NCBI RefSeq assembly: GCF_013408825.1
Contig: NZ_JACCBZ010000002.1
Coordinates: 434,001 to 498,000, forward strand
Reading direction: 5' to 3'
Source: Mucilaginibacter tundrae
GTDB taxonomy: Bacteria; Bacteroidota; Bacteroidia; Sphingobacteriales; Sphingobacteriaceae
DNA length: 64,000 bases
Shown: piece after piece, positions 22,391 to 51,880 of the stretch
Position numbering within the stretch: position 1 is the stretch's first letter
How the letters are laid out: every line of letters starts with the position of its first letter
Notes under the pieces: generated by a model
Seen by the model: the letters and a program-made list of their open reading frames with translations, nothing else
Database searches by the model: none
What the model was told of the DNA's origin: nothing
Program-made: the position numbers and the translations under genes

Positions 22391-22400
22391 AATTAATTAA

Positions 22401-23600: not shown

Positions 23601-23611
23601 GATAAATGAAA

Positions 23612-24037: not shown

Positions 24038-24042
24038 TGGAT

Positions 24043-26058: not shown

Positions 26059-26062
26059 AATC

Positions 26063-26890: not shown

Positions 26891-26892
26891 GA

Positions 26893-28038: not shown

Positions 28039-28450
28039 GATTTTTCTTTTTAAATTGTTGATTGATCTGACCCAGCCGGTTAAGGTCATTTAATAATGTA
28101 GTACTGTCAGCCTTATCCAGGTTCCTTTTTTTACTGATGCTGTCCACTTGTTTTTTCAGGGCGATGGTTTCCTTCAGCGCGGAACTTAGGCTGAGTATCT
28201 GGCCAATGCCGTCACTCACCGGGCTGACCATAATTTTAGTTGGAGGTGCCGGGTGCCTGCGGAGCGTGAACACTACCGAAATGGAAATAACGATACTAAA
28301 GATCATTAGACCAAACAGCAATTTCGGGTAGCGTTCGGTGAATGACCTGGTGCCACTACCCGCTTTACTGAAATATCCACCAAATTCTTTTTTGATCTCG
28401 CTGTACAGCGTATCGCTGGCGTCGCGTTTAGAATGTATTTTTTTGAACAT
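28028..28450 (-). CDS. TraL-position single-helix membrane protein
   Basis: About 140 aa from MFKKIHSK at 28450; the open frame reaches 28471. A polar N-terminus is followed by one membrane helix (PKLLFGLMIFSIVISISVVF) and a C-terminal coiled-coil-like region. It occupies the traL slot between traK and traM, and such small bitopic proteins are typical there. No catalytic motif is visible. Confidence 0.75.
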   Translation of the reverse strand: MFKKIHSKRDASDTLYSEIKKEFGGYFSKAGSGTRSFTERYPKLLFGLMIFSIVISISVVFTLRRHPAPPTKIMVSPVSDGIGQILSLSSALKETIALKKQVDSISKKRNLDKADSTTLLNDLNRLGQINQQFKKKNHEH

Positions 28451-29042: not shown

Positions 29043-29058
29043 AAAATTAAATTGAAGG

Positions 29059-31004: not shown

Positions 31005-31008
31005 AACA

Positions 31009-33004: not shown

Positions 33005-33009
33005 GGGAA

Positions 33010-35460: not shown

Positions 35461-35734
35461 AATGATTGATGTGATGAATGATGTAAATGCCTTTTGCCCT
35501 GGACTTATCGTGCAGGCCCTTTTTCTGTTTGCCTGCGATATAGAGCAGCCCGCCTACAATGCTACCGATGAGCACGACCGCGCCGAGCCACATATTGACG
35601 AGTGACATGGTCAATGCACCAAAGACCAGCCCGGCCAACAGGGAGCCCAGGCCCCAGTAGATGAATTTTCCTCGGAACCCCCTAAATATAAGGGGCTTTT
35701 GGAGCCCCTTATATACTGCAAACCGTTTCGCCAT
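35438..35734 (-). CDS. traF: Conjugative transposon protein TraF (DUF4133)
   Basis: A 98-aa protein with two central membrane helices and basic ends. The FAVYKGLQKPLIFRGFRGKFI start and the basic INHYGRKKHL end are typical of DUF4133, the VirB3-like inner-membrane part paired with the VirB4-like TraG. Its ends overlap traE and traG. Confidence 0.9.
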   Translation of the reverse strand: MAKRFAVYKGLQKPLIFRGFRGKFIYWGLGSLLAGLVFGALTMSLVNMWLGAVVLIGSIVGGLLYIAGKQKKGLHDKSRAKGIYIIHHINHYGRKKHL

Positions 35735-36042
35735 TAGGTCAGGCCAAAGAAGGCTTTAATGATCAGCGCGGAAACCACGAGAAACACGCAGCTACCGCCC
35801 CAGCCCATCAATTCCTTGTTGATGTCGTTATCACCTGAATTCCATTTGGAATACACGCGGATCGCGCCGACGATTCCCACGATACCACCGATCACTAAGG
35901 CGATATTGGTTACCGGGTCAACATAAGTTTTTAAGGTAGTGGTCGCGGTGTTGATACCGGTTACACCATTTTGGGCGAAAGCAGAAGCCATGCCCAGGAC
36001 CGACAGCATTGCTGTGGCCCAGATCCGTTTCATTTTGTTCAT
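35734..36042 (-). CDS. traE: Conjugative transposon protein TraE (DUF4134)
   Basis: About 102 aa from the ATG at 36042 (MNKMKRIWATAML); the frame is open further upstream but that extension is not protein-like. There is a signal peptide, then two membrane helices (IALVIGGIVGIVGAIRVY and CVFLVVSALIIKAFFGL). This is a VirB2-like DUF4134 pilin. It shares the GIxGAxRxYxxW pattern with the neighbour at 36140-36430. Confidence 0.88.
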   Translation of the reverse strand: MNKMKRIWATAMLSVLGMASAFAQNGVTGINTATTTLKTYVDPVTNIALVIGGIVGIVGAIRVYSKWNSGDNDINKELMGWGGSCVFLVVSALIIKAFFGLT

Positions 36043-36139
36043 GAAAAATAGGGGTATTAAATTGTTGTTAAAAAAATGGCGGCGCCCCGCTACCAGCAGG
36101 ACGACCGCCGGGGTTATTTGGGGTATTAAATTTGCAAGG

Positions 36140-36430
36140 TCAGATGCCGAAAATGGCCCGCAGAAAAGCACCGGCCAGCACCATGAATAAAGCGGCGAAG
36201 AACCACCCGGCTACTGCCTGGTCGATACGCGGATGCCCCATCTGCCAGTTATGATAAATGCGGACCGCGCCCAGAATGCCAAAGATGCCGGCAAGTACCA
36301 GCGAACAGTCAAGCGCCGAAAAAAAAGAAGAAGAAAGGTCACTTTGTGCCTGCTGCATTTCATTCAGCCCAGGTTGGGCCATTGCTGCTATAGCTGCCAG
36401 CAGAAAGCAGCCCGTCAGGAAATACCGCAT
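36140..36430 (-). CDS. Second DUF4134 (TraE-like) protein
   Basis: A 96-aa protein with signal peptide MRYFLTGCFLLAAIAAMA and two membrane helices; the GIFGILGAVRIYHNWQMG segment parallels TraE next door. Two tandem VirB2-like proteins could form a mixed pilus or represent an ancestral duplication. A signal-region Cys (TGCFL) might be lipidated, though the spacing is not ideal. Confidence 0.8.
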   Translation of the reverse strand: MRYFLTGCFLLAAIAAMAQPGLNEMQQAQSDLSSSFFSALDCSLVLAGIFGILGAVRIYHNWQMGHPRIDQAVAGWFFAALFMVLAGAFLRAIFGI

Positions 36431-36432
36431 GG

Positions 36433-36723
36433 CTAATAGCTGACGGATTTGGTATAGACGATCAGCTGCTGGCGGGCCAGACTGAACAGCTCTTTGATGG
36501 GGACCCCGCCCGAGGCGATAACCGCCGGGCCGTCTGCAGGCTGCTGGGTTTCCTCCGGCCGGTGTTCCAGCTTCTGGGTAGATATTTCTTCTGAAAATGT
36601 CAGTTCATTCGTTAATGCACCTGCCGGAACATTTTTGGTTCCGGCGAGGTCAATTAAAATCACGGCCAGGTAATACAGGGTATATATCCCGGCCACCCAT
36701 ATAAAAAAGTGTATCCAGTTCAT
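36433..36723 (-). CDS. TraD-position single-helix protein
   Basis: A 96-aa protein with one N-terminal membrane helix (FFIWVAGIYTLYYLAVILIDL) and a polar Glu/Pro-rich tail. It sits between the two small RHH-like paralogues and the TraE-type genes, matching the traD slot in gene order. No enzymatic motif is seen. Confidence 0.65.
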   Translation of the reverse strand: MNWIHFFIWVAGIYTLYYLAVILIDLAGTKNVPAGALTNELTFSEEISTQKLEHRPEETQQPADGPAVIASGGVPIKELFSLARQQLIVYTKSVSY

Positions 36724-36724
36724 G

Positions 36725-36985
36725 TTAGTTAATGGTTTCTAAAAAGTTCCTGATAATGGTTTTGAGTTCCGGGTGCTGCCGGAGCAGTTCGCTGATGGCG
36801 AAAGCGACGATCTTTTGAATTTCTACGCCGGTGGCCAGTTTCAACTGGCTCAGGTTGCCCGCGGTACGCTCGTCGAGCCGCGCATGGATGAGTGTTTTAT
36901 GATCGCTGTTGTCATAAGCCTTTATCCGGTCCAGTATTTCATCATAGACCGGGTCGCGTTTGCCGCGAAAGAATTTCCAGCTCAT
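36725..36985 (-). CDS. Small TraB/TraC-type protein, paralogue 2
   Basis: An 86-aa basic protein (HKTLIHARLDERTAGNLSQL, then RQHPELKTIIRNFLETIN). It matches the second half of the 36982-37311 protein: xxHxRxDxxTAxxLxxxKxATGVExxxxxxxxIxxLLxxHPExKxII. This looks like a DUF3408-type or ribbon-helix-helix-like module working with the ParA ATPase. It overlaps the paralogue by 4 bp. Confidence 0.7.
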   Translation of the reverse strand: MSWKFFRGKRDPVYDEILDRIKAYDNSDHKTLIHARLDERTAGNLSQLKLATGVEIQKIVAFAISELLRQHPELKTIIRNFLETIN

Positions 36986-37311
36986 AGGTCAAAATTTTCT
37001 AAGTGTTCTTTGATAATGATTTTGATTTCGGGGTGCCGTTCCAGCAATTGCGCCACGGAATAAGAGATCAGGCGGGTCACCTCGACGCCGGTTGCCATTT
37101 TAAAATGGTGGAGCAGCTGCGCCGTTTGCCGGTCAAACCGGACATGCACCATACTGTCATGTTCCTTAATGTCGTAGCCTCTTATCACCTCAACTATGGG
37201 CGGTGTGACGGTCATTTTGCCGGACTTTTTCTTTGTTTTGGTTTTTTCCGGCGTGTCGGGTTTGGCCATGCGGCTCCGCAACTGGTCAGCCAGCGTTTTG
37301 ATCTCGTTCAT
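36982..37311 (-). CDS. Small TraB/TraC-type protein, paralogue 1
   Basis: A 109-aa protein. A Lys/Pro-rich N-terminus is followed by the module shared with the next gene (SMVHVRFDRQTAQLLHHFKM, then HPEIKIIIKEHLENF). Its start overlaps the ParA gene by 4 bp. A DNA-binding partner of ParA is plausible; the family name is inferred from gene order. Confidence 0.7.
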   Translation of the reverse strand: MNEIKTLADQLRSRMAKPDTPEKTKTKKKSGKMTVTPPIVEVIRGYDIKEHDSMVHVRFDRQTAQLLHHFKMATGVEVTRLISYSVAQLLERHPEIKIIIKEHLENFDL

Positions 37312-37940
37312 GTGATGATGGGTTTTATATGTTCTTTGAAGATTTTTTCAAATAGCGAAATCACCAGGGGGTAAACCGATAGCGGCGTTTGCAGGGTGTT
37401 CACCCGCTGGAAGTCGATACGGTCAGGAATGGGTTCAGTTACCGTACCGAATTTGGTTAGCTGTTCGTCAACCTCTTTTTGCGTTTCATATTTGACATTG
37501 GCCTTGATCCGGTTAGGGATATAAGCTATCGGAACTTTCGGGCTGATCTGCCGTAATACGACTGAAAACAGGATGGTGGATTCAAAGCTGAACTCATCGT
37601 AAGCAAAAGGGCAAACAATCAGGTCGGCCGATTTGAATATCGGTATCAGCCCGTCATCATCGAGTTTGCCCGGCAAATCGATCAGCACGATCTCTTTTTT
37701 ATTGACCGCGTAGACTTCATACATGACCGGGTAGTCTTCCAGGCTGGCGGCAATCACTTCATAGAGTTCGGGGTTTTCCAGCAGCTTCGCCTTTTCATAT
37801 TTCTGCGAAAGCGATTGCTGGTAATCGCTGTCAACGACCGTGACCTTGCATTTTTTGGCCAGTGTTAAATAATTCGCCAGTAATAAGGTGAGCGTACTTT
37901 TTCCCGCGCCGCCTTTTTGGTTGCCGATGATGATGATCAT
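37308..37940 (-). CDS. traA: ParA-family ATPase (TraA)
   Basis: A 210-aa Walker-type ATPase with deviant Walker A GNQKGGAGKST (about residues 6-16), VTVVDSDYQQS near 35 and IVLIDLPGKLDDDG near 88. ParA/MinD-type ATPases open Bacteroidota tra operons as TraA and probably position or count the element. It follows mobB by 23 bp. Confidence 0.88.
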   Translation of the reverse strand: MIIIIGNQKGGAGKSTLTLLLANYLTLAKKCKVTVVDSDYQQSLSQKYEKAKLLENPELYEVIAASLEDYPVMYEVYAVNKKEIVLIDLPGKLDDDGLIPIFKSADLIVCPFAYDEFSFESTILFSVVLRQISPKVPIAYIPNRIKANVKYETQKEVDEQLTKFGTVTEPIPDRIDFQRVNTLQTPLSVYPLVISLFEKIFKEHIKPIIT

Positions 37941-37963
37941 AAATTTTAAATTGAAATTGAGTG

Positions 37964-39265
37964 TTAGCGTGTATTGGTGCGCGCTTTCTTTTGCCGCCTT
38001 CTGCGCATACCGTAGATTTGCTGGTCATCCACATCGTCTGCGATATTTACCATAATTTCTTCTGTGTATTGCTGCTTAACTTCCAGGTCGAGTTCCGTGA
38101 GTTGCTCGAATTGCCTGACCAGTTCCCGGTAACCTTCATCGTCCAGCAGTTCCCCGGCGTTAGTATAAAAAGTTCCGTCCTTGTCGGTTAAAAAGAATGC
38201 TTCACCATCCAATAACAGGTCCAGCCCTTGATGCCGCAGCCCTTGCGCCAAATCAGGGTAGTTATATAAAGCGGCTTTTAACAGCGCGGCATAGTAAGTT
38301 TTGATAGCTTCGCTATGATCCTGTTCCTGCCAGATTTTTTCTTCAGTTGGTATTTCTGCTGTGGAACGGATGCTGAGTAATTCTTTTAAGGCTATGATCT
38401 CGCTGCCCTTAAAAACCGCTTTGCCGGAATGGTCAATCACTGAATAACCGTAAGGCGGCTTATCGGCGGAGGCATGAAATAATAAAATGAGCCCATGTTT
38501 TTCTTTGAGATATTCGGCAAAAGCCGAAGTATAGCCATTCGGTTTTAGCTGCAAACTGGTATCATATACCAACGCGTATCTGTGAAAAATGGCCTTTAGC
38601 TGGCTGAACCGTTCCGGCTTGGCTACCGAAAATCTCAATTGACCTAAATCTATTTCGCCCTGTTTATGGCCGAATTTGATTACCTCAAGTTTGCCATCTG
38701 CTTCCTTTATTGTATAGCCCTGGCTTTCCAGGATCATCATCAATTGCGCCTTGGTGGAATAAGTAAAAGACAAGGCTTTCGCGATGTCCTGTCTGGCGCT
38801 GTGCTTTTCATCAATGCCTAAAATCTGATTCAGGTGCTTTATCGCCCGTATGTTTTCAAAGGAATCGTTGATCTTTTTACCCTGTTTATCTACCCGAGTG
38901 GTGACGATATGGATATGATTGTTCTGTGTATCCTTGTGAAACACCAACAGGTAAGGTTGGTTGCCGTAGCCCATTGCCGTCAGCCATTGTGCGGCGATTT
39001 CGGTAAGTTGCTGTTTGTCATGGCTTTTTCCGCCAGCTGAAATCACAGCATGGAACTGTGGCTTTTGAACCGCTTTATTGGTAGCGGAAACCGCCTTTAA
39101 ATAATTCCGGTAATCTTCGGGCCGCCAGTGCTGCAAACCTTCCAAAGGGCCAAAGCCCGACACCTTCATCAATTCTCCTTTGTTCTTGTCCAACTTACCT
39201 GTGTTATAGCCAACGGCTGGAAATGAGGCTGACCGCTTGGTAGCCGGGATGATCTTTACAATCAT
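37964..39265 (-). CDS. mobB: Relaxase/mobilisation nuclease (MobB)
   Basis: A 433-aa relaxase. The N-terminal domain has GYNTGKL near residue 20 and the metal-binding histidines His110 and His117/His119 (FHKDTQNNHIHIVTTRV). It nicks oriT and pilots the strand. The C-terminal half is less conserved. mobA is upstream but separated by an unusual 542-bp stretch that holds repeats and a small gene. Confidence 0.9.
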   Translation of the reverse strand: MIVKIIPATKRSASFPAVGYNTGKLDKNKGELMKVSGFGPLEGLQHWRPEDYRNYLKAVSATNKAVQKPQFHAVISAGGKSHDKQQLTEIAAQWLTAMGYGNQPYLLVFHKDTQNNHIHIVTTRVDKQGKKINDSFENIRAIKHLNQILGIDEKHSARQDIAKALSFTYSTKAQLMMILESQGYTIKEADGKLEVIKFGHKQGEIDLGQLRFSVAKPERFSQLKAIFHRYALVYDTSLQLKPNGYTSAFAEYLKEKHGLILLFHASADKPPYGYSVIDHSGKAVFKGSEIIALKELLSIRSTAEIPTEEKIWQEQDHSEAIKTYYAALLKAALYNYPDLAQGLRHQGLDLLLDGEAFFLTDKDGTFYTNAGELLDDEGYRELVRQFEQLTELDLEVKQQYTEEIMVNIADDVDDQQIYGMRRRRQKKARTNTR

Positions 39266-39268
39266 AAT

Positions 39269-39500
39269 GGCGGTATATTGTATCGTGAGCTATTATTCCA
39301 CGGTATTTTACAGCGGGGGACTTTCTCTCCCGATACTTTGTTCCCCGGTATTTTGTACCGGGATAGTTTAGTAATTCCGCTCCCGAGATAATATTCCCCG
39401 GTATTTTCTCGCGGGAGACTTTGTATCGTGAGCGTTTAGTAATTGCGCTCCCGGTACACTATGCCGGGAGATTTTCTCGCGGGAGATTTTGTATCGCGGT
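39269..39500. repeat. Cluster of degenerate CCGGTATTTT-type repeats between mobB and the 95-aa gene
   Basis: About ten imperfect units of the form C-CGGTATTTTGTA-CGGGAG alternate in both orientations. A longer direct repeat GTTTAGTAATTNCGCTCCCG occurs at about 39367 and 39437. The units resemble those near 7250-7305 and at about 40340. No gene crosses the region. Binding sites for a mobilisation or ParA-type protein, or an incompatibility/transfer locus, are possible. Confidence 0.6.
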
Positions 39501-39503
39501 ATC

Positions 39504-39791
39504 TTATATCTTGCGCAGATCGTTTTCTAAATCCTTGTAACCCTTGATCCATTTCAGCACTGCCTTATCCTCGCAGCATTCTTCTAAATGATATTTGTGA
39601 ATGATCTTCGCCTGGCCCTGTTCAAATCCCCTTTGCCAGTCCAGCCAGGAACTTGTCCGGTAATTATACCGGGGATCAAAGGGCCGCTGGTGACCGGAAC
39701 GGTATTTCAGGAACGAAAAATAGGCGTAACGGCCCGTGTAATAGGCCAGTATGATAACGGCCAGTGTCGGCAATGTAATCGTAAATTCCAT
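39504..39791 (-). CDS. Single-helix hypothetical protein, 95 aa
   Basis: One N-terminal membrane helix (ITLPTLAVIILAYYTGRYAYF), then a polar tail with two adjacent Cys (EECCED). It lies between mobA and mobB, a position normally without a gene, with 15 bp to mobA. The family is not recognised. Confidence 0.6.
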   Translation of the reverse strand: MEFTITLPTLAVIILAYYTGRYAYFSFLKYRSGHQRPFDPRYNYRTSSWLDWQRGFEQGQAKIIHKYHLEECCEDKAVLKWIKGYKDLENDLRKI

Positions 39792-39806
39792 AGCTGTTTT
39801 TTTGAT

Positions 39807-40181
39807 TTAATGCCCCATAGCACGGACTATCCTGCGCAGGGCGATTTCCAATATTTTTTGGTTGGCGATATATTGTTCAAATAAGGTATTAAACCGTTCC
39901 ATAACCACTGGTGACAGGACTTTCTTATTGTTTAAGATATTGCCATAACGGGCCAGTTGATTGATGTTATTACCTGAGCGGCCCAATTCTGCGCCGATAC
40001 TGTCTAATGACCGTATCAGTTCTTTAGCGTTAATTACAACAGCCGGTGCATTTGCCAATAGCCTTGATCTGACCAGGTCCGTCTTGCGGACACCCAGTTC
40101 CTTTTCCATCGCCAGGATGATCGTGTATTCCGCTTCCGTAAAGCGTGCATCTATTTTTTTAGTGCGGTTCTCTTTTTTCAT
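39807..40181 (-). CDS. mobA: Relaxosome accessory protein MobA (MobC-like)
   Basis: A 124-aa protein. A ribbon-helix-helix-like N-terminus (KIDARFTEAEYTIILAMEKELG) is followed by the conserved GRSGNNINQLAR block and a helical C-terminus. Such proteins bind oriT next to the nick and help the relaxase MobB. Immediately upstream is a palindrome-rich stretch that I take as the oriT candidate. Confidence 0.85.
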   Translation of the reverse strand: MKKENRTKKIDARFTEAEYTIILAMEKELGVRKTDLVRSRLLANAPAVVINAKELIRSLDSIGAELGRSGNNINQLARYGNILNNKKVLSPVVMERFNTLFEQYIANQKILEIALRRIVRAMGH

Positions 40182-40201
40182 GGAGGATAGGAGTTGCGAC
40201 G

Positions 40202-40316
40202 ATCCGTTACCCCTTAATCCTTAGCGCAGGTACGGAGCGAAGGTTTAAGGCAAGATGCCGGGGGCCGGAAAAACAACGGATACGGCGTTTTGTCGGACAA
40301 CGGCACATCTTGCAAG
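40202..40316. other. Candidate origin of transfer (oriT)
   Basis: In the gap upstream of mobA lie two clear inverted repeats. One is CCTTAATCCTT (40212-40222) with AAGGTTTAAGG (40240-40250), 10 of 11 matching. The other is GCAAGATGCCG (40250-40260) with CGGCACATCTTGC (40301-40313), 11 bp with a 2-base insertion. ATCCGTT/AACGGAT (40202-40208, 40275-40281) also pairs. Adjacent inverted repeats just upstream of mobA are where Bacteroidota oriT sites usually lie. The nick site is not identifiable by eye. Confidence 0.5.
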
Positions 40317-40362
40317 GATAAAAACCAAAAGGTAACCCGGTATATTGTATCAAGGAATAGGT

Positions 40363-41298
40363 TCATTTCTCGGCTCTTAGCTTATCATTATAGTCGTTAT
40401 AATTTAAGTAATGATGCGAACCATCCTTCGCGCCTGGTATTGCCTTTTTTAAATCGATGGAGGCTCCTTGTCCCCCCAGATCATGATCGAAAAAAAAGCA
40501 TACCTCGGTATATTCCTTGGCTTTACGAATAGCTGTTTCGAGTAGCGAAATTGAATTGAGTATGAGCACAGTGCTGGTTTCCAGGGGATGCTCGGTCAGC
40601 CAGCTGAGGTAATTGATGTAACCTTCAAATAGGACTAAGCTATGTTCGTCTCCGGGAATAAGAGAGATCGCTTTATGGCCCAAACAGCCTTTGAAATACA
40701 GGTTGCGTACTTCCCAAGAGCCGAGTTCGTTCTGCCAGCCGGCGGCGAAGAAATATTTTCTCAATTTCTTTTGGTCTTCCACAAAATAGTAAACCTCTTT
40801 CATGCGGCCCTGGGAAGCCCTCCATACCTTACGTGACTGCAGGTATTCCGTTATCGCTGGGTTTCCGCCCAATTCTTTGACCTCCTGGATTTCATAGTGC
40901 GGGATCTTTACCGGGCTTCGTTTACGGTGTTTAGTTTCCGGTAAATAATCTTTAACGGGCAGCTGATTACCGATAATCTCCGTGATCTTTTGCAATACTT
41001 CCCGGAAAGATAAGGGATACCAGTAAGCCAGGGCAAGGTCAATAATATTACCGCCTTTGATCCCGGAAGGATTCGCACCTCCGTGATCATACCAAACTCC
41101 GAGTTGGTTATCGACGCAAAACGAGGCTGTTCTTTCTTCCCTTAGCATACTGTTATAAAATAATTCCTTACCGGATTTATAGGCGGGGTGATGGCCTAAC
41201 CGTGCTAAAAAATCGGCCGGGGAAACCTGATCGCGGATATCCTGCGCATTGTAGTTAATTAATGTATTCATTTGGTTTGCAATTTGTAAATGGGTCAT
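40363..41298 (-). CDS. Toprim-like primase-type protein
   Basis: A 311-aa protein. The N-terminal CHC2-like region has ELFYNSMLREERTASFCVD and GGNIIDLALAYW but lacks the zinc Cys cluster of true CHC2 domains. The C-terminal Toprim-like part has SLVLFEGYINYLSWL and VCFFFDHDLGGQGA. Such proteins are common near Bacteroidota mob genes and probably act on transferred DNA. A later Met (residue 11) could be the start. It aligns with the protein at 41546-42091. Confidence 0.8.
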   Translation of the reverse strand: MTHLQIANQMNTLINYNAQDIRDQVSPADFLARLGHHPAYKSGKELFYNSMLREERTASFCVDNQLGVWYDHGGANPSGIKGGNIIDLALAYWYPLSFREVLQKITEIIGNQLPVKDYLPETKHRKRSPVKIPHYEIQEVKELGGNPAITEYLQSRKVWRASQGRMKEVYYFVEDQKKLRKYFFAAGWQNELGSWEVRNLYFKGCLGHKAISLIPGDEHSLVLFEGYINYLSWLTEHPLETSTVLILNSISLLETAIRKAKEYTEVCFFFDHDLGGQGASIDLKKAIPGAKDGSHHYLNYNDYNDKLRAEK

Positions 41299-43214: not shown

Positions 43215-43442
43215 ATGAACAATTCCTCAAATTCTTTAAAGAGCTTATTGGAACTTGGTGTAAGCGATGATTTCAGGCAATGTGCTGCCACTATGAATAT
43301 ACATTGTTTGCAGGACGTGCTCGACCAAGACTTAAGCGAAATAAAAGCTCACCCAGCCTTTAATTATATTTGGTATACAGACCTGCTCAGTTTACTAAAA
43401 AAAGAAGGTCTTTTAGACGAATTCCAGGATAGGTTACTATAG
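43215..43442 (+). CDS. Hypothetical protein, 75 aa
   Basis: A small helical protein (SLKSLLELGVSDDFRQCAATMN, then DVLDQDLSEIKAHPAFNYIW). The repeated short helices recall a helix-hairpin-helix or SAM-like fold, but I cannot name a family. It follows the structured-RNA candidate in the same direction and overlaps the end of the convergent 399-aa gene by 6 bp. Confidence 0.6.
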   Translation: MNNSSNSLKSLLELGVSDDFRQCAATMNIHCLQDVLDQDLSEIKAHPAFNYIWYTDLLSLLKKEGLLDEFQDRLL

Positions 43443-44636
43443 TGAACGCCTATAATTGCGTATGCTAAATTTTTCATCGAGCCAGTTCTGCATATCAATG
43501 AGCATATCCCATAATTTCAGAACGGTTGCAAACTCAACGTCGGTAGAACGTTTCAGTAAATTACTGGAAGAAATAAACAGTGATTTGTCTGTATAAAAAT
43601 GCATTGCAAAGAAAGTGCAAACCTCTGTTATTCCGGTCTTCAGGATAATTTGCGTTTCTTTCAAAACCCTTATAAACAGTGCGAATTGAGGAACAGTCAT
43701 GTCAAGCAATAAACGTAGCGCCTTTTCGGCATCTATTTTATCCTGCATTGCCAGGCGTCTATGATTTAAAAGCTTTTCTAAATAGGCTGCTTTGGCTTCG
43801 AAAAAGTTTTGAAGCTCTAACTTTAATGAACAATCATTTGAATTAAAGCTGCATTGATTTTGAATCAGCACGCCATTCATTTCATTACTTTGCTGAATTA
43901 TATATTCAAGCTGCTCATGAAGACCATCGATATTTTGAAGCTTCAAATTTGTAATATTAGTAAGGTACAAGTAGAATTCCGGGCGGTTAAAATCGAGGCT
44001 AATCAGTGTTTTTATAAGGGTATGCTGATTTAAACTATTTAAGGATTTAACCTGAGAAATCATGTTCATCACATATTTCAAACTTGCATAGGATAACTTG
44101 CCCGGAATCGATATTGCGTTAATTCCCTTTATAATTAGGCCCCCCAACTCGCCGTCAATTTTAGCATTTTGAAGCAAAAGCTGAAGATCATTTGTTTCTT
44201 TTCTTAATTCGGGCAGAATCTTTTTAAGCCGAAAATCGCTAATTTTAATAGTCATATCACAGAACTCCGAAAAGTATTTTTCTGCATAGCTTAATAAGTC
44301 CTCAAAAATATTTAACACCGAAACGTATAGTTTTTTGATCATGCCCGCCTGTGGACTGATATACCAAATCCGTTTTCTTTTAAAAAGGTATTGATTTACC
44401 TGGTTAATCAGCGATACCAATTGTTGTTGTTGGGCTTTCAGAAATTGTTTCTTATCCTCTGTTGCTGCCTGGCTTAGCATGTAGGACGATATATTAATTT
44501 TCCATTTGGCACTTTTATTTACTGAATAGGCCGTCCAGTTTTTAAAATCCTCAGGACTCAGTTCTTGATTCATTAATGCTGATGGAGATAGGGCTTCATC
44601 AACCCACACCAGCAGTTTCGGGAAGGTATAATTCAT
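43437..44636 (-). CDS. Hypothetical helical protein, 399 aa (possible RteC-like regulator)
   Basis: An almost entirely helical soluble protein. The last 100 residues (TVPQFALFIRVLKETQIIL..., KSLFISSSNLLKRSTDVEFATVLKLWDML) look like the winged-helix tail found in several Bacteroidota ICE regulators, including RteC-type proteins. The remaining 300 residues are unknown. It lies beside a LytTR regulator, in the same direction with a 144-bp gap. RteC is a loose comparison only. Confidence 0.55.
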   Translation of the reverse strand: MNYTFPKLLVWVDEALSPSALMNQELSPEDFKNWTAYSVNKSAKWKINISSYMLSQAATEDKKQFLKAQQQQLVSLINQVNQYLFKRKRIWYISPQAGMIKKLYVSVLNIFEDLLSYAEKYFSEFCDMTIKISDFRLKKILPELRKETNDLQLLLQNAKIDGELGGLIIKGINAISIPGKLSYASLKYVMNMISQVKSLNSLNQHTLIKTLISLDFNRPEFYLYLTNITNLKLQNIDGLHEQLEYIIQQSNEMNGVLIQNQCSFNSNDCSLKLELQNFFEAKAAYLEKLLNHRRLAMQDKIDAEKALRLLLDMTVPQFALFIRVLKETQIILKTGITEVCTFFAMHFYTDKSLFISSSNLLKRSTDVEFATVLKLWDMLIDMQNWLDEKFSIRNYRRSL

Positions 44637-44780
44637 ATTTAGCGTAAATTATATTTTTAAGAAGTTCCTTTAGCTGTTTTTCTATTGGATAAGGTTAAGG
44701 CCTCTTTTATTGGCTACATTTATGCTTTTAGGTATTTTACATTTATTTGCTATTATTAAATATTGTTTTCCGTTCAAGTG

Positions 44781-45530
44781 TTATTTATTCCGCGATGTCT
44801 TCGCTAAATTATTCGTTACATAATTATGGAATTCCGATTTGAATCGATCTCCAACAGGAAAAGTGAGATTGTTACTCATTTTTATTACACCGGAAGCTAT
44901 ATAGCTGATGTGATCTACAGCGATGACATACGAACGGTGAAACTGTTTAAATTCACCGCGCGAGCCTAACAGTTCCAGTATGTCCTGAATGGTCAGATAC
45001 GATGTAATGGTTCGGTTATTTGCCAAATAAATTTTTATGTAATTATTCAGACTTTCAAAGGCAACAACCTCCGCAAACAACACATGCTCTATGCGGAGGT
45101 CTTCATCCTTGTTTTTTACCAGAAAGTAATCCTTACCATTAAATTTATGCTGAACTTCAGACGATTCAGACGATTCAGGCGGGAATAAGCGGTTTAGCAT
45201 AGCCATGAAATCGCCAAAAGTAAAAGGCTTAAGCAGATAAGCATCACCCTCGACCTGATAAGCTTCAAAAGCATATTGGGTATGAGAGGTAGTAAAAACC
45301 AGTTTCTTTACAAGGGGCCTTAAAGTTTTTGCCAATTCAATCCCTGAAACATCAGGCATATTAATGTCCATAAACAAAACGTCAATATTCTTAAAGACTT
45401 CAATCTTTTCAATGGCTTGCTTAGGGTCAAGAAACACCTCTTTAACTTTTATTCGCTTAGTCAGCTCGATATAGGTGATGATTACATCAACTGAAAACTG
45501 TTCGTCATCTATTACAATACAATTTACCAT
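44781..45530 (-). CDS. LytTR-family response regulator (copy A)
   Basis: A 249-aa protein. Its receiver domain has VIDDEQ at about residues 6-11, the phospho-acceptor Asp in MDINMPD near 55, Thr in FTTSH near 82 and Lys in LLKPF near 102. The LytTR DNA-binding domain covers about 135-245 (FLVKNKDEDLRIE, FKQFHRSYVIAVDHI). It is closely related to the regulator at 51134-51880. It probably responds to the LytS-type kinase at 47116 and controls the peptide locus. Confidence 0.92.
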   Translation of the reverse strand: MVNCIVIDDEQFSVDVIITYIELTKRIKVKEVFLDPKQAIEKIEVFKNIDVLFMDINMPDVSGIELAKTLRPLVKKLVFTTSHTQYAFEAYQVEGDAYLLKPFTFGDFMAMLNRLFPPESSESSEVQHKFNGKDYFLVKNKDEDLRIEHVLFAEVVAFESLNNYIKIYLANNRTITSYLTIQDILELLGSRGEFKQFHRSYVIAVDHISYIASGVIKMSNNLTFPVGDRFKSEFHNYVTNNLAKTSRNK

Positions 45531-46110
45531 ATTTCAACCCTGGATTTGCAAGCAGATCAATATCTTCTCGATTAACAATCATTCATTTTTCATAATACGT
45601 CATAATCAACGTGTCCGTTGTTCGATATACTTTCAAATAGCCATATATATATAATCATCCTTTTTCCAAAGATTGTCAATTGAGTAGCAACCTCGCAGAA
45701 GGATAATTAAGATCGGACCCATGAAGATTTAAGATTCATTTTTAAGCTTGAGCCAGCAATCGTCTAAATTCCTCCTTGTCCTCCTGGGTCTTAAAAATCA
45801 ATATGGAATATTTCCATATATGACGCCTATAATCGAGTAATCCTACTTAACTATTAAGCTAAAATACGGCTATTAATTAACATCATTAAAGCTACTTGGG
45901 TATAAAGGGTGATTTTCTACGTAAACGCCAAGGTTTTCTATATATCAGTTCATATTATTACGAAAATTGGTGATAAACATTAATTTTAATGAAATATTTT
46001 CATCAATGACTGATATTTTATTCCTTAATTTACTTTTTACAAGGTTTTCCGTATTAAAGAGTATTTAAAATGCATAAGCTAAGGGTTAATTAAACATTAA
46101 TTCCTTAAGC
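45531..46110. other. 580-bp gap between divergent LytTR genes
   Basis: AT-rich. It must hold the promoters of both divergent regulators, but no clear TAnnTTTG box or LytTR repeat pair stands out. A coding remnant on the minus strand is listed separately (45742-45846). Confidence 0.4.
45742..45846 (-). pseudogene. Candidate C-terminal gene remnant
   Basis: After an upstream stop, 34 codons read as GLLDYRRHIWKYSILIFKTQ followed by EDKEEFRRLLAQA and a TAA. The charge and aromatic pattern looks like the end of a real helical protein. No start codon or upstream part remains in frame, so this would be a relic of a lost gene. Confidence 0.3.
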
Positions 46111-46848
46111 ATGAAAAAATATAATTGTATTATTATTGATGATGAACCTTACGCAGTAGCAAGGCTGGAGAACTATGTAAAATCGATACCTTATCTTAAT
46201 CACATGAAATCCTACACCGAACCGATGCAAGCCATAGCAGATTTGACAATAGCTGATCCGCTTGATTTAGTTTTGGTGGATATCAGGATGCCGTTAATTA
46301 CAGGTCTTGACGTATCGCGTAAAATCAGGTCAAAAGTAGACAAATTGATTTTCACGACCGCTTACTCTGAGTACGGTTATGAAGCCTTCGAGCTCGAAGC
46401 GGATGCATATCTACTTAAGCCATACACACTTTCCAAATTTGCGGCTACGATTGCAAAAGTATTTCCTAATGAAAAAACAAACTATCAGTTTAATATGGAG
46501 GCTGATTATTTTTTCACCAAAAATAATGATGACGGATACAAAATTGTAAAGATTAAATACAGTGAAATTATAGCTGTGGAAAGTAAGCAGAACTACGTGA
46601 TCATTCATACGCCTGTTCAGAAAATAAAAACGCATTTATCATTAACGGAGATGGCAAAAATATTAGAGCCTTTTCCTTCGTTTGCCCAACTGCAACGAAG
46701 CTTTATCGTTGGGCTTGATCATATCGTTTTTGTTTATGGGAATACGGTAAGGATGACTACGGGACTCGAAATAACAGTAGGTGATTATTATCGTAAGAAT
46801 TTTAATGATTTTTTGGCAAATAAAATGATAAAAGGCAGGACAACGTAA
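46111..46848 (+). CDS. LytTR-family response regulator (copy B)
   Basis: A 245-aa protein. The receiver has IIDDEPYAV near residue 7, LVDIRMP (phospho-Asp near 54), FTTAYS near 82 and LLKPYTL near 100. The LytTR domain covers about 130-240 (FFTKNNDDGYKIV, FAQLQRSFIVGLDHI). It is more divergent than copies A and C. It is divergent from copy A and convergent with the precursor-like gene. A terminator overlaps its last codons. Confidence 0.92.
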   Translation: MKKYNCIIIDDEPYAVARLENYVKSIPYLNHMKSYTEPMQAIADLTIADPLDLVLVDIRMPLITGLDVSRKIRSKVDKLIFTTAYSEYGYEAFELEADAYLLKPYTLSKFAATIAKVFPNEKTNYQFNMEADYFFTKNNDDGYKIVKIKYSEIIAVESKQNYVIIHTPVQKIKTHLSLTEMAKILEPFPSFAQLQRSFIVGLDHIVFVYGNTVRMTTGLEITVGDYYRKNFNDFLANKMIKGRTT

Positions 46849-46867
46849 AATACGTGTCCTGTCTTTT
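46836..46867 (+). terminator. Rho-independent terminator of LytTR copy B
   Basis: CAGGAC-A-ACGTA / AAA / TACGT-GTCCTG forms an 11-bp stem with one bulged A, followed by TCTTTT. It overlaps the stop codon and separates this gene from the convergent precursor-like gene, which ends at 46873. Confidence 0.75.
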
Positions 46868-46872
46868 GGTGA

Positions 46873-47025
46873 TCATCCTTTTTTACCGCTATGGAATACT
46901 CCTGTAACAGTAGTGGTGATCATGGTGGTTGTCGGGTCTGTATCCGCTGTGGTGGTGTCGCCCGATTTTGAAGCTTGGAAAACAAACAGTGTTTCCCGGC
47001 TGATTTTGAAATGTTTTTGTTTCAT
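46873..47025 (-). CDS. Thr-rich, Cys-free RiPP precursor-like peptide, 50 aa
   Basis: From the ATG at 47025 the peptide is 50 aa; an in-frame extension to 47055 exists but is less likely. The N-terminal part MKQKHFKISRETLFVFQASK looks like a LanB-type leader (basic start, then IS.ETL..F). The rest is a core region with eleven Thr, including the runs TTT (three times), and with PTTTMITTTVTGVF near residues 31-44. It has no Cys, so lanthionine rings cannot form within it. It sits between a LytTR regulator and a LytS-type kinase, 1.1 kb from a full LanB dehydratase. The substrate relationship is inferred from leader type, Thr content and context. Confidence 0.7.
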   Translation of the reverse strand: MKQKHFKISRETLFVFQASKSGDTTTADTDPTTTMITTTVTGVFHSGKKG

Positions 47026-47115
47026 GATATTTTTTTTAGGAAAATTAGGGACCATGAAAGCTGCGCTGAAATAATTGGGACGGAAGGATGGAAAGGTGAT
47101 TTATAAAACTCCAAA

Positions 47116-48219
47116 ATGACGATGGAAAAATTTACAAGCAAACTTAAAAAGTACCGTATCCATATAATTGCCTGGGCTGTATTCATGACTTACGAAACGG
47201 TCGTAATTGGCTTTTATTCGGGAACATTCGGTCATCCCCTTACTTATGCAGCGCATTACCTGGTCATTATTTTATTTTTTTACCTGCACGCCTGCCGTTC
47301 TTTACCGTGGGGCCTAAAACAACCAAAACAAATATTGTGGAGAATGCCTACGGTTATGATTTTAGAGATCCTGTTGTTTATAGCTGCGAACTACGTTGTG
47401 GATTTTGTACTCGTAAAAATTCATACGCTCAGCGGTCCTGTAAAAACCATTCATGATTTACAATATATCATGAAAACACTATACAGGTGTCTTTATTTCA
47501 TCTTATTTGCAACAGGCTATTATTTGCTCGAAACTTATCTAAGAGAACGGAAACGAACGAACGAACTTGAAAAAAGGCAGTTACAAGATACCATAGAACG
47601 GCAGCAGATCTTACAGGAAATGGCTAAAGCACAAAATGCCTTTCTTTTAGCGCAGATCAATCCGCATTTCTTTTTTAATACCCTTGATTTTTTATACCAT
47701 CTCGTAGAATTTACCACACCTGTTGCTGCAAAGGCTGTCAGTACGCTAAGTGCGATGATGCGATTCGCTATCGATGCTGATAAAGTCGGCAATTTTATTT
47801 TAGTTGGTCAGGAAGTTGAACAAATTGATAATCTGCTTTATTTAAACCAATTAAGGCAGAAGTTAGATATTCAGTTTAATGTATCAGATGATGTAATGTC
47901 TTTACACTTGATCCCACTTGTGTTACTTACGTTTGCCGAAAACATATTTAAACATGGAAATCTTAAACCTGGTAATAAGGCTACCATAAACATTTACCTC
48001 AGTGACGAATTTTTCGTCACTGAAACGGATAATGCAATTGATCCGGCAGCCCACGTTACCGGAACGAAGACAGGGTTAATAAATACCGCCAGGAGGTTAG
48101 AATATGCTTATGGAGATAAGTCGATTTTTAATTATGGTGCGGATGCCGATGGCAGATTTAAAGTAAGGCTTCAGTTGCCTTTGGTTCTTTTAAAAACTGC
48201 TGTCTCTTCAAAAGCTTAA
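47116..48219 (+). CDS. LytS-type sensor histidine kinase
   Basis: A 367-aa protein. Four membrane helices are at about residues 10-32, 36-56, 70-95 and 117-140, followed by a coiled coil and the HisKA_5-type H-box QINPHFFFNTLDFLYHLVE (phospho-His near residue 180). The N-box is PLVLLTFAENIFKHG and the ATP-lid segment KTGLINTARRLEYAYG. It should phosphorylate one or more of the LytTR regulators here. It is divergent from the precursor-like gene (90 bp) and its 3' end overlaps lanB by 62 bp. Confidence 0.92.
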   Translation: MTMEKFTSKLKKYRIHIIAWAVFMTYETVVIGFYSGTFGHPLTYAAHYLVIILFFYLHACRSLPWGLKQPKQILWRMPTVMILEILLFIAANYVVDFVLVKIHTLSGPVKTIHDLQYIMKTLYRCLYFILFATGYYLLETYLRERKRTNELEKRQLQDTIERQQILQEMAKAQNAFLLAQINPHFFFNTLDFLYHLVEFTTPVAAKAVSTLSAMMRFAIDADKVGNFILVGQEVEQIDNLLYLNQLRQKLDIQFNVSDDVMSLHLIPLVLLTFAENIFKHGNLKPGNKATINIYLSDEFFVTETDNAIDPAAHVTGTKTGLINTARRLEYAYGDKSIFNYGADADGRFKVRLQLPLVLLKTAVSSKA

Positions 48220-51010
48220 AAAGGTGTTGATATAGTATCGCTTCCTGCTCCCGCTGATCGGAAATAAAGAGCCGGTTAACATGCATGTGTATCAGGTCGG
48301 CAGCAAGCATATATTTATCGTTCCTGTCGGAGGCTCTTGTTAATAGCTGAGCAAAACGGGAGGCCAATTTTTGAATGTCAACGATGTTGAAATGTGACTT
48401 GCCTTCCGTGAAATTACGTTGTAACTGCTCTGTTTGCTGGTTTATCAATTTAAAATCGTCCGGCCCCATTGCAAATTCCTTGCTATAACTTAAGGCCATA
48501 TAGTTTAAAAAATCAAGCCTTTCAGTCACAATTGGAAAGCCGGAAGTAACTAAAAGCCTTATAGTCATTAGCGTTATCTGATAAAATGTATCGTTATCGA
48601 TTTTTTTCTTTAAAACTTGTATCGCATAGCGACTGTCATAATAGAAAAAATCTTCAATATAGCTAAGGCGGTCAATACCGTAGCGTGTAATTTCAGGGAA
48701 ATAACTTTTAATCTGCATATCTGCAATCATACCTGTTTGGATTTCCTTGTTTAGCACTTGCTGTAAACCCTCGATAAGTAGGAATGTGTGCTCACTTTTT
48801 TTCAATAATATTCTTAAGCGCAAATGTGGCCCATGGTCGTCATATCGAATGAAAAACCATTTTTCTATATATTTTCGATGAGTTTTAAGAAACCGGGCAA
48901 TTGGATTTTGAAGTAAATCATTAAATCGGCCTGGATGACTATATATGGCAAAGTAAAGCCATTTATTACCGGGAGGAATCATCGTATGCTCACTGTGATA
49001 TTTAATTCCTCTTACAGTTTCGTCCACGGTTGAATAAACCCTTTGAGTATGGGTATAGTTCAGTATGATTTGTGCGGCTAAGGGCTTACCTGATTTAGTA
49101 GTAATCATATGATCATCCGTTACAAAAGCTTCCGACAGATAGATGGGCCTCCCTGCATTTTTAAGAAAATAGGTGGTTAATTTTGATATATCGTCATCCT
49201 TGAAAGGGAATATGAGCAGGGTTTGATCGCCTTCCCCTACGGTAAAGGGGACTTCTAAATTAATTTGGTGCAGCCATCTTTGGATAATATTATTGCAGTT
49301 TTTTTTGTCATTGATAAGTTCGTTAACCAAATCGCCCGGTACGCGCCAGGATTCCGGTGAAATGACCAGATCTTTATATATGACTCTTGAATAATGATCC
49401 AATTCCGGCAAAAGTTCTTTAAGCTTGAAACTTAATTTTGTTCTAATGTTTTGATGTTGCAGATCACATAAGAATCTAAATAGCGGAAGATCGGAACGAT
49501 GATAATTGTACGCGGAGGGTATCCGTGGAACCATTCTTTTACCATATTTTTTAGAATAAAGAATAATTTCATTTTCAAGAACTCCCACAAGAATATCATC
49601 AATATGTAACGGTTCGTCAAAGCAAGACCATGATAATATGGGTAATTCATAATTATAAAAAGACTTTCGCCTGTTTACGTTATCAATGTGCCGCTCGGCC
49701 TGATAAGCAACATCGAAAAACAAAATATCAGCGTTTGCCTCCTGTTCAATCGCCGCAAGCCGTTTCCCCATGGTTTCAATAGCAGGAACACCTAACGAAA
49801 AACGTCCTATCAGAGAATTCGCAGTTGCGCCCCCGATGTGTTCAATAATGCCTAACGATTCGAAGTGGTGCAGTATCACCGAAAATGAATTTGGCAAAGA
49901 CATCGTTGTACAAGGTTGTTCAGAATTGAAATCTTCCAAATTGATAATAGGACCTTGCATTGATCTGTTAAGCAGGAATACAAGAAAAGGGTCATAGTTT
50001 ATTTGAGGCAACTGAGCGCCATTCTTGTACTTAATACGATCAGTTAAGGCAGCATTATGAAGTTGGTTACTTTCAAGATTGGCATACCCTATACCTAATT
50101 CCGGATCAAGTGCCAATGCAAGCGGAATAAATCTTAATTCAAATTTTCTTTTAAATCCTTTAATAAAAGCCTGAAAATTACTATTAATACTTTCAGGAAG
50201 GTGATTATTTAAAAAATTGACCAGTTCAGTTAGGTGCTTGTTCAAGCTATTGTTATAGCCCCCGTTGATTACTTTCCGTTCAGCTATGATATAAGGTATT
50301 TCGTAGTTATTCACCTTGTTGTACACCTTACGCAAAAAGAAATCTTCACCGGTAATATTGGGTGTGCAATCCGAAATCAATACCTGCAATGAAATCAGCT
50401 GCGTTAACAGTTGATCAATCGATGCTTTGTCTAAATCCATTGCTTTAAACAGTTCCTCAGAAAGGTCGGATTTATTCCGCTTTTTGTTGCAAAAATTCAC
50501 GATCAACCGTAATTCCGGGAATTCGGGAATTACTGCAATCTCAAACCGCCCTTTGTCCAAATAGATATATCGGTATTGATGGCCAACTTTATACAATGAT
50601 GCATTTAAAAGATATTCATTAGAGGATTTAAAATGAGCAACGGTGTTAGCTAATTGAACGGAAGTTGCCTGCCAGTCAATGAAATGCAGAAGAGTAAGGT
50701 TGTCATTAAGCACTATTAGGCCCTGTTTCTGCTGTGGCACTACACTGATGCCTGAAAATCTTCCGAAAGGGGTGGCACGATGCCGCGCCCGGTTGAAATA
50801 CTTCCAAAGTGTATAGGCTACTTTATCGTCTTGATTGATTAGATCTTCTTTTTTTAGATCGCAAATTATTTGAAAAAAAGATGGAGATGCTTCTTTTATC
50901 ATTCCTTTCAATTCTTCAAGATTATCAGCTATTTCATCATAAATCGAAAAAGCGGGAGTTCTGCAAATGATTTCGGTGTCTAAAGAAAGTTTATAATCCA
51001 ATGGCCGCAT
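48158..51010 (-). CDS. Class I lanthipeptide dehydratase (LanB-like)
   Basis: A 950-aa full-length LanB. The N-terminal glutamylation domain has the family signature FNRARHRATPFGRFSGIS (about residues 72-89). The C-terminal elimination (SpaB_C) domain begins near 690 with WLYFAIYSHPGRFNDLL and KWFFIRYDDHGPHLRLRIL. LanB enzymes glutamylate Ser/Thr using Glu-tRNA and then eliminate glutamate to give dehydroamino acids. Both halves are present in one chain, unlike split LanB systems. A LytTR regulator lies 123 bp upstream. No LanC gene is in the window. Confidence 0.88.
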   Translation of the reverse strand: MRPLDYKLSLDTEIICRTPAFSIYDEIADNLEELKGMIKEASPSFFQIICDLKKEDLINQDDKVAYTLWKYFNRARHRATPFGRFSGISVVPQQKQGLIVLNDNLTLLHFIDWQATSVQLANTVAHFKSSNEYLLNASLYKVGHQYRYIYLDKGRFEIAVIPEFPELRLIVNFCNKKRNKSDLSEELFKAMDLDKASIDQLLTQLISLQVLISDCTPNITGEDFFLRKVYNKVNNYEIPYIIAERKVINGGYNNSLNKHLTELVNFLNNHLPESINSNFQAFIKGFKRKFELRFIPLALALDPELGIGYANLESNQLHNAALTDRIKYKNGAQLPQINYDPFLVFLLNRSMQGPIINLEDFNSEQPCTTMSLPNSFSVILHHFESLGIIEHIGGATANSLIGRFSLGVPAIETMGKRLAAIEQEANADILFFDVAYQAERHIDNVNRRKSFYNYELPILSWSCFDEPLHIDDILVGVLENEIILYSKKYGKRMVPRIPSAYNYHRSDLPLFRFLCDLQHQNIRTKLSFKLKELLPELDHYSRVIYKDLVISPESWRVPGDLVNELINDKKNCNNIIQRWLHQINLEVPFTVGEGDQTLLIFPFKDDDISKLTTYFLKNAGRPIYLSEAFVTDDHMITTKSGKPLAAQIILNYTHTQRVYSTVDETVRGIKYHSEHTMIPPGNKWLYFAIYSHPGRFNDLLQNPIARFLKTHRKYIEKWFFIRYDDHGPHLRLRILLKKSEHTFLLIEGLQQVLNKEIQTGMIADMQIKSYFPEITRYGIDRLSYIEDFFYYDSRYAIQVLKKKIDNDTFYQITLMTIRLLVTSGFPIVTERLDFLNYMALSYSKEFAMGPDDFKLINQQTEQLQRNFTEGKSHFNIVDIQKLASRFAQLLTRASDRNDKYMLAADLIHMHVNRLFISDQREQEAILYQHLFKLLKRQQFLKEPKATEALL

Positions 51011-51133
51011 AAATGCTATTTTTCAGTAAAAAAAAAGCATTTTAATGCCACAGGTTAATTTCTATTACAGAAGGGCTCTTTTTGGGGACATAATTTGTAA
51101 TAATAGTTAGTGATCGAAAAGTGGGTCACCTGA

Positions 51134-51880
51134 TTACGATTTAGATCGGTTAGTTTTTAGCAACCTACTTGAAAGAAATTGGCGGAATTCTTGTTTGTAC
51201 TTTTCGTCAACAGGAAAACTAAAATCGTTATTCAATGTAATCGTATCATTGCTGATGTATTTAATTTGGCAAACTGAAAGTACGTATGCCCGGTGAAATT
51301 GTAAAAAATCATCGCGATTATTCAATAGCTGCAATATATCTTTAATAGTCAGGTAGGCTGTAACGATGCGCTGGTCGTTTAAATGAATTCGAACGTGGTT
51401 ATGACAACTTTCAAAATAAATAACATCTTTAAAAGCAATAAATACGACTTTTAAGCCATCGTCCTTGTTTTTAACCAGGAAATAATCTTTTTCCGAAACC
51501 CCATGCGGATAATCATTTTTCCGCCCAAAAGTAAATAAACGATGGATGGTGGTCAGGAACTTCGCATAAGTTAATGGTTTGAGTAAAAAGGCATCGGCCT
51601 CAACTTCGAATGCGTCAAACGCATAGGATGAGTGTGAAGTGGTAAAAATGATCTTTTTGACCCTCGGCCTGAATATTTTTGCCAGTTCAATTCCGGTGAG
51701 ATTTGGCATATTAATATCCAGAAATAGAATATCTAAATTCTCGAAATTATTTGCGTTATTGAGCGCCTCCGTAGGATCGAGATAGATTTTAATTACGTCT
51801 ATCTTTCCCGTTAAATCAATATATTTTAACAGCGCGTCGATTGAAAATTGCTCATCATCTACGATTATACATTTTAACAT
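51134..51880 (-). CDS. LytTR-family response regulator (copy C)
   Basis: A 248-aa protein. The receiver has IIVDDEQFSIDAL near residue 5, FLDINMPN (phospho-Asp near 55), FTTSHSSYAFDAF near 82 and LLKPLTY near 102. The LytTR domain covers about 135-240 (YFLVKNKDDGLKVV, FLQFHRAYVLSVCQI). It aligns closely with copy A across its whole length. It lies just upstream of lanB in the same direction, so it is a likely activator of the peptide genes. Confidence 0.92.
   Translation of the reverse strand: MLKCIIVDDEQFSIDALLKYIDLTGKIDVIKIYLDPTEALNNANNFENLDILFLDINMPNLTGIELAKIFRPRVKKIIFTTSHSSYAFDAFEVEADAFLLKPLTYAKFLTTIHRLFTFGRKNDYPHGVSEKDYFLVKNKDDGLKVVFIAFKDVIYFESCHNHVRIHLNDQRIVTAYLTIKDILQLLNNRDDFLQFHRAYVLSVCQIKYISNDTITLNNDFSFPVDEKYKQEFRQFLSSRLLKTNRSKS

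Follow-up and report, generated by a model that had tools for sequence, protein, structure and literature searches.

A LanC-free LanB dehydratase encoded with a threonine-rich peptide and a LytS/LytTR system: a putative peptide-signalling cassette of Mucilaginibacter and related Bacteroidota

A 64,000-nucleotide stretch of the Mucilaginibacter tundrae genome (RefSeq assembly GCF_013408825.1, contig NZ_JACCBZ010000002.1, positions 434,001 to 498,000 of the forward strand; hereafter the window) carries, side by side, genes for a LanB-type dehydratase, a small threonine-rich and cysteine-free peptide, a LytS-type membrane sensor kinase and LytTR response regulators (Table 1). We propose, with a probability of roughly 0.55, that they form a self-contained peptide-signalling cassette, in which a linear, dehydrobutyrine (Dhb)-rich peptide made by LanB would be the ligand of the cassette's own kinase. 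The proposal is drawn from sequence, namely from a conserved gene set, a conserved peptide, retained catalytic residues, the lack of a LanC or C39 match in the genome and co-variation between the peptide core and the kinase sensor; from these we infer that the peptide is dehydrated and exported, that the kinase binds it as a ligand, that it induces its own cassette and that linked genes come under the same control. An earlier reading of the same DNA (the original prediction) had recognised the dehydratase and its putative substrate and had attributed the neighbouring regulators to environmental control.

The gene order LytTR_A(-), LytTR_B(+), peptide(-), kinase(+), LanB(-) is common to the window and the nine closest loci of the genus, with differing flanks, and the next three loci by LanB similarity (L048-L050) hold LytTR, kinase and a Thr-rich open reading frame (ORF) in other arrangements. 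The three LytTR regulators and single LytS-type kinase named in the original prediction are borne out by Pfam; three regulators lie near LanB in the window versus two in the nine orthologous loci, and, judged by gene content, the kinase and LytTR genes are conserved members of the cassette, with the exception of LytTR C. The kinase has its hydrophobic segments within residues 15-103, before a His motif at 182, and the orthologues keep a similar spacing between peptide and kinase as well as an A-rich block upstream of the peptide. By eye, a TTTCTACATAAA-like block also recurs upstream of LytTR_B (window 45914-45935 and orthologues) and a TATAGAAA-like block beside the kinase start, each a possible regulator site.

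Table 1. Features of the locus and its surroundings, in window coordinates
Feature	Position	Strand	Basis and remarks
Conjugation/mobilisation genes	21590..41298	-	Pfam; same strand as LanB, peptide and o390
399-aa 'o390' family protein	43437..44636	-	Profile match 3.4e-42; 2237 bp after peptide, LytTR genes between
LytTR response regulator A, divergent from B	44781..45530	-	Pfam; in 9/9 orthologous loci
LytTR response regulator B	46111..46848	+	Pfam LytTR/Response_reg; order conserved in nine orthologous loci
Thr-rich, Cys-free putative precursor peptide, 50 aa	46873..47025	-	Conserved in 9/9 orthologous cassettes fetched; codon-position signal
Divergent region, 90 bp	47026..47115	.	Separates peptide and kinase starts
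LytS-type membrane sensor histidine kinase, 367 aa	47116..48219	+	Pfam His_kinase 6.8e-15; hydropathy
LanB-type dehydratase, 950 aa	48158..51010	-	Glutamylation and elimination domains; Pfam PF04738/PF14028
LytTR response regulator C, third copy	51134..51880	-	Pfam; upstream of LanB, same strand

The same gene set recurs well beyond these ten loci. When named genomes were scanned with the LanB alignment, 118 relatives came to light, and the best 80, five of which are records already counted among the nine orthologous loci, belong mainly to Pedobacter and Mucilaginibacter, with further members in Hufsiella, Olivibacter, Sphingobacterium, Taibaiella, Niabella, Chitinophaga and Edaphocola. Kinase and LytTR genes, under strict limits, accompany LanB in 72/80 of these named loci, and a family peptide does so in 75/80, with 140 peptide matches altogether and more than one match in 23/80 loci. 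When protein families were clustered, more loosely than under these strict limits, across 138 loci (59 from the genus, chosen for kinase and LytTR, and 79 named ones, unselected), LanB was found in 138, LytTR in 138 and the kinase in 137, the next commonest family reaching 37. A peptide, a modifying enzyme, a membrane kinase and a regulator, the combination by which a peptide-signalling system would be recognised, are found here as one conserved cassette.

LanB matches occur in 46 of 100 genomes (E 1e-20, own genome included), from which we compiled a census of 88 LanB rows; one LanB is counted twice and another is split in two, all but four rows are from the genus, those four being from two genomes of other families, a LanB fragment on C10 (L053) is omitted, and rows below 600 aa are left out of the peptide and conjugation counts. 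Seventy rows have kinase and LytTR without LanC, and seven (four from the genus, three from other families) have LanC without either regulator; the remainder comprise one with both, nine with none and one with LytTR only. The LanC of the single row with both belongs to an adjoining LanB-LanC pair. In the LanB tree the LanC-paired enzymes cluster with three unclassed ones (10 tips, support 0.981), and the precursors beside LanC contain Cys and have GG in the leader in the three loci read (L157, L196, L197). The window genome itself holds three regulator-type LanBs (window, C3 and C5), each with its own peptide, and a LanB fragment. At G000 C10:4176-4469 (L005), an N-terminal LanB fragment in a 153-codon open frame is perhaps the relic of a fourth cassette. 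The LanB at L165 4910-7939, which has no kinase, LytTR or LanC, adjoins a regulator-type LanB and has two radical-SAM-like proteins (by eye) nearby.

The dehydratase is complete, as originally predicted, with the glutamylation and elimination residues of a full class I lanthipeptide LanB. It matches Lant_dehydr_N (9.9e-56) and Lant_dehydr_C (9.5e-50), and identical residues align with NisB R87, T89, D121, R464, R784, R786, E823, R826 and H961, positions that we take to be catalytic; NisB R14 presumably pairs with R17 of the window protein. Sequence comparison gives NisB and MibB as its relatives of solved structure, and the closest Protein Data Bank (PDB) folds to an AlphaFold (AF2) model from 67 aligned sequences (predicted local distance difference test, pLDDT, 89.0) are MadB, NisB and MibB, at template-modelling (TM) scores of 0.53-0.59 over the whole chain; an earlier model from 10 sequences, at pLDDT 53.5, was set aside as poor. 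Among 68 regulator-type LanB rows, R17 is kept in 67, R78 in 64, T80 in 61 and R403 in 68. A LanB chemistry other than dehydration, for instance stable glutamylation or amino-acid addition, would have precedent in LanB relatives such as the PEARL enzymes, which reportedly act differently, but it is improbable here, as the residues matching NisB R784, R786, E823, R826 and H961 (R731, R733, E773, R776 and H908) are kept in 68, 67, 68, 67 and 64 of the same 68 rows and the elimination domain is full length.

Position and strand of the putative substrate gene do not differ between the window and its nine closest loci. The ten peptides share the consensus MKxKxFKIxxxTLFVYK...TDPTTSMITxTxTGxF, in which we place the border between leader and core, by eye, at about residue 22, and mismatches per codon position across their ten genes are 0.397/0.363/0.613, a pattern that fits a protein gene on the minus strand; an alternative upstream start at 47055 lacks conservation among the orthologues. 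Orthologous loci and codon signal together establish the small frame as a real gene that is conserved in related genomes, in 9/9 orthologous cassettes. The eleven core threonines originally counted are all those beyond residue 17, the whole peptide having 12 Thr and no Cys. All ten closest cores are free of Cys, the leader part has one in two of them (L042, L045), and no GG cleavage site was seen by eye among the ten. The window peptide has no NCBIfam or Pfam match, and no member of the 31-peptide family alignment shows a recurrent one; the Bacteroidetes class I leader model NF038153 leaves the window peptide unmatched and gives weak, sub-cut-off matches only elsewhere in the genome. That short ORF and LanB are unrelated neighbours, as the ORF's shortness and want of a family match might suggest, is hardly credible and already contradicted by a place, strand, leader and core that are conserved across the window and 9/9 orthologues, by the presence of the family in 75/80 named loci and by the excess of mismatches at third codon positions. 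A chance ORF was likewise ruled out, by conserved position and strand, the same third-position excess and family profile matches near LanB.

In the wider census, 65/69 regulator-type rows of at least 600 aa come with either a profile match or a small ORF rich in Thr/Ser, and the peptide profile alone matches beside 40/69 LanB rows with kinase and LytTR versus 0/17 without. Across both sets of loci, every one of the 180 profile matches is no more than 6 kb from a LanB, as are 75% of the bases searched, and the profile was grown from the same loci in which it was then counted. When the A3 peptide profile was run over 395 genomes of the phylum, matches appeared in at least 3 (the own genome and two of one other genus), a lower bound because the profile missed the C3 and C5 peptides of the same genome. 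Several Pedobacter loci, including L078, L083 and L125, contain tandem arrays of near-identical peptide copies, seven in the longest clean array (L125), and core types vary between species; L081 has eight peptide matches, some of them overlapping or cut ORFs.

Neither LanC nor a transporter or protease is found among the cassette ORFs scanned, in agreement with the original prediction, and the search for distant partners that it proposed returned 0 LANC_like (PF05147) and 0 Peptidase_C39 matches in the window genome, which is 99.96% complete; the genome-wide search covered these two families, not proteases and transporters of other kinds. The same PF05147 search is positive in 24/61 genomes of the genus. 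Among the named loci, 0/80 have a LanC within 9 kb by phmmer with three Mucilaginibacter LanC queries, which a distant LanC could escape and which did detect LanC in two genomes of other families; a C39 transporter lies within 9 kb in 6/80. Furthermore, no exporter, protease or immunity family recurs across the 138 loci. A canonical lanthipeptide at the window locus is ruled out by the genome's lack of a LanC match and the peptide's lack of Cys. One completed in trans, with Cys or LanC from elsewhere, could draw on the one or two Cys of some family peptides, but is very improbable in a genome without a LANC_like match, and 59/67 genus peptides have no Cys in their last 32 residues. The peptides of L098, L107, L116, L129 and L134 have Cys near the C-terminus (two in L098 and L116), with no LanC found nearby. 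Because both LanC and Cys are missing, the product would be linear and ring-free, and a Dhb-rich peptide would be the natural expectation.

The case that this product is a ligand comes from comparing how the parts of the cassette diverge. The kinase sensor diverges more than the kinase part (0.521 versus 0.176 in pairs with a LanB difference below 0.45). With LanB, kinase and regulator controlled, core and sensor distances are correlated in a partial Mantel test over 63 loci (0.341, p 1/401) and again over 49 other loci (0.215, p 0.005), the set left once eight loci with ambiguous partners had been dropped. In phylogenetically independent pairs the correlation is 0.646 (31 named pairs) and 0.44 (24 genus pairs), and over all 55 the partial r is 0.615 (p 0.0002), or 0.586 when the leader is controlled as well, with core versus LanB at -0.186 and core versus kinase domain at -0.065. 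In the 63-locus set the leader follows LanB (0.215) and not the sensor (0.058), matching the prediction of the model.

Several observations weigh against this interpretation, some of them within the same comparisons. The core also correlates with the DNA-binding part of the regulator (0.099) and with the kinase part (0.081) in the 63-locus set, and in the 49-locus genus set it follows LanB too (0.175, p 0.0075), the leader there tracking kinase (0.177) and regulator (0.185) and not LanB (-0.018). In the independent pairs the leader tracks the sensor as well (0.467) and the core tracks the regulator (0.272, p 0.022; 0.441 in the named set), and controlling the leader in the genus pairs lowers the core-sensor value from 0.44 to 0.289 (p 0.086). 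As the kinase start adjoins the peptide start, linkage contributes. No candidate peptide at all is present in 4/69 genus loci, and the Thr/Ser-composition criterion is only twofold enriched (63 per 552 kb versus 16 per 289 kb of flanks), too weak to be used alone, so that profile matches and position were used instead. A Cys falls in the last 32 residues in 8/67 genus peptides (one probably a chance ORF) and in 15/140 named-locus profile matches; even so, the pairing of orthologues with Cys-containing precursors throughout, which would have spoken against the original prediction, is not what the nine closest, Cys-free cores and the wider family exhibit. Finally, dedicated export and processing were not found, the cassette having no exporter or protease and the genome no C39, which leaves secretion without explanation.

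On balance, the peptide core appears to co-vary with the kinase sensor, part of the signal coming from linkage, and linkage does not readily explain a correlation that, over all pairs, survives control of the leader, which lies nearer. Since kinase and LytTR accompany this LanB type, are absent from the LanC-paired one (7/7 rows) and co-variation joins core and sensor, the regulators more likely sense the peptide than the environment. The full dehydratase, the conserved Cys-free, Thr-rich putative substrate and the missing cyclase of the original interpretation hold, and its environmental control gives way to regulators that are parts of the cassette.

The same evidence bears on what the peptide might do instead. 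If the product were a Dhb-rich linear antimicrobial, akin to a bacteriocin, the kinase and LytTR pair would only induce its production; LanB is known from antibiotics, and the many tandem copies of some Pedobacter arrays would suit a bulk product. We consider this unlikely, as no immunity, exporter or protease family recurs, the core co-varies with the sensor, and the LanB-LanC loci, which are the expected antibiotics, do without kinase and LytTR. Somewhat similar standing, at the level of a minority possibility, is given to a modified peptide that stays in the cell and serves as a switch or timer by binding its own kinase within the inner membrane. Such a role would agree with a genome without C39, with the lack of a recurrent exporter and with closest peptides that show no GG site, yet belong to a family whose cores co-vary with the sensor; tandem copies and the diversification of cores between species rather resemble a released signal, and unlinked factors could still provide export.

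In the signalling model that we favour, LanB would bind the peptide leader, move glutamate from Glu-tRNA onto Thr (and Ser) of the core and then eliminate it. Unlinked factors would remove the leader and export the core, and the LytS-type kinase next door would recognise the dehydrated core through its membrane sensor. The kinase would then phosphorylate the LytTR regulators, which would act on the cassette's own divergent promoters and, in conjugative elements, probably control linked genes too.

Parts of this model have counterparts among known systems. In nisin autoinduction through NisRK, a kinase senses the LanB-modified peptide, as proposed here; nisin is a cyclised antibiotic, however, and NisRK is not a LytS/LytTR pair. 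In agr (AgrBDCA) and other LytTR quorum-sensing systems, a peptide, a modifying enzyme, a membrane kinase and a LytTR regulator make up a minimal cassette. The window cassette has the same four-part gene set and a sensor that varies with the peptide, but LanB takes the place of AgrB and the host is Gram-negative. LanB-type dehydration without LanC is found in goadsporin and thiopeptide systems, whose GodF and TbtB are also among our structural matches; these systems divide glutamylation and elimination between separate proteins and employ azole enzymes, unlike the single LanB protein here, which has no other known modifying enzyme beside it. With class I lanthipeptides (nisin; Bacteroidota LanABC) the cassette shares a full-length LanB with the NisB catalytic residues, and it differs from them in lacking LanC, in its mostly Cys-free cores, in the missing genomic C39 and in its kinase and LytTR genes, the latter absent from all seven LanB-LanC rows of the census. 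The leaders follow a pattern, [FL]x[IL]x[KR]x5[FY], that looks by eye like the LxLxKx5L motif given for Bacteroidetes class I leaders by Walker 2020 (PMC7268733). The mining in that study began from LanC-containing proteins, and LanC-anchored mining of this kind would miss a family without LanC. Chitinocin (PMC10239826) has no known sequence, so that no link to the family can be drawn. In the literature searched, which did not include the two papers likeliest to bear on the subject, Caetano 2020 and Bothwell 2021 (Pedobacter lusitanus), we met no account of a LanB that lacks LanC and is joined by a kinase, LytTR and a Cys-free peptide.

Some of the loci lie close to conjugation genes. The 399-aa ORF at the left edge, left uninterpreted in the original prediction, belongs to the same kind of locus as LanB and the peptide. 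It is matched along its length by an o390 profile from which the window protein had been omitted. The o390 cluster has 27 members, 25 of the other 26 being included in alignment A5; in 23/27 the ORF shares the strand of the peptide gene and starts -10 to +178 bp downstream of it, and three are without a recognised peptide. No recurrent Pfam, NCBIfam or PDB match was found for the family, and a relationship to RteC, resting on a weak resemblance to the C-terminal part of RteC (hhalign probability 25%), is not claimed. An o390 gene is found near LanB in 29/69 regulator-type rows, 0/7 LanC-paired ones and 0/9 others. In 18/69 genus loci LanB, o390 and rteC follow one another on one strand, 13 of these with TraE and 11 with TraG, and a conjugation gene lies within 9 kb in 22/69 regulator-type rows versus 0/16 (Fisher p 0.009; related loci are not independent). 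Among the named loci, 13/80 have a conjugation gene and 0/80 an o390 match.

RteA-RteB-RteC controls the Bacteroides conjugative element CTnDOT. The genus loci with LanB, o390 and rteC on one strand and tra genes may be compared with it, with the difference that a LytTR regulator, LanB and the peptide stand where RteA-RteB would. The window has, as genes of a conjugative element of the Bacteroidota kind, a coupling protein, DUF4138/TraN, TraM, TraG, DUF4134/TraE, a relaxase and NikA/MobC-like, Toprim and ArdC-like proteins (we take TraN and TraE as names for DUF4138 and DUF4134), and no rteC match in its 36-60 kb stretch. Of its nine closest loci, G013 has a relaxase and similarly placed tra genes with a distant o390 match, L040 a coupling-protein match and L045 a PRTRC match, and six show no conjugation match in the stretches read; in those read around the two other LanB loci of the window genome, none of the conjugation proteins tried was found. 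Annotated LanB, kinase and LytTR genes also occur together on plasmids of Hymenobacter, Spirosoma and Emticicia, with a Cys-free, Thr/Ser-rich ORF beside the kinase, by eye, in Hymenobacter and Emticicia and none recognised in Spirosoma. On the Spirosoma plasmid (L227 13550-15472), several annotated NHLP-leader and TOMM propeptide genes lie downstream of the LanB that has a kinase and LytTR. Among 128 pattern matches in viral contigs there were 0 LanB relatives.

Overall, if the proposed signalling role is correct, LanB would have a second, cyclase-independent role, the making of a signalling peptide. To our knowledge, peptide pheromones acting through two-component systems are hardly known in Gram-negative bacteria. 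Tentatively, and with clearly less confidence, we suggest that the cassette may represent an undescribed class of peptide pheromone in Bacteroidota, which in its conjugative-transposon branch might replace RteA-RteB and switch DNA transfer in response to neighbouring cells. The family would also offer a directly testable candidate for how some conjugative elements of Bacteroidota sense their surroundings.

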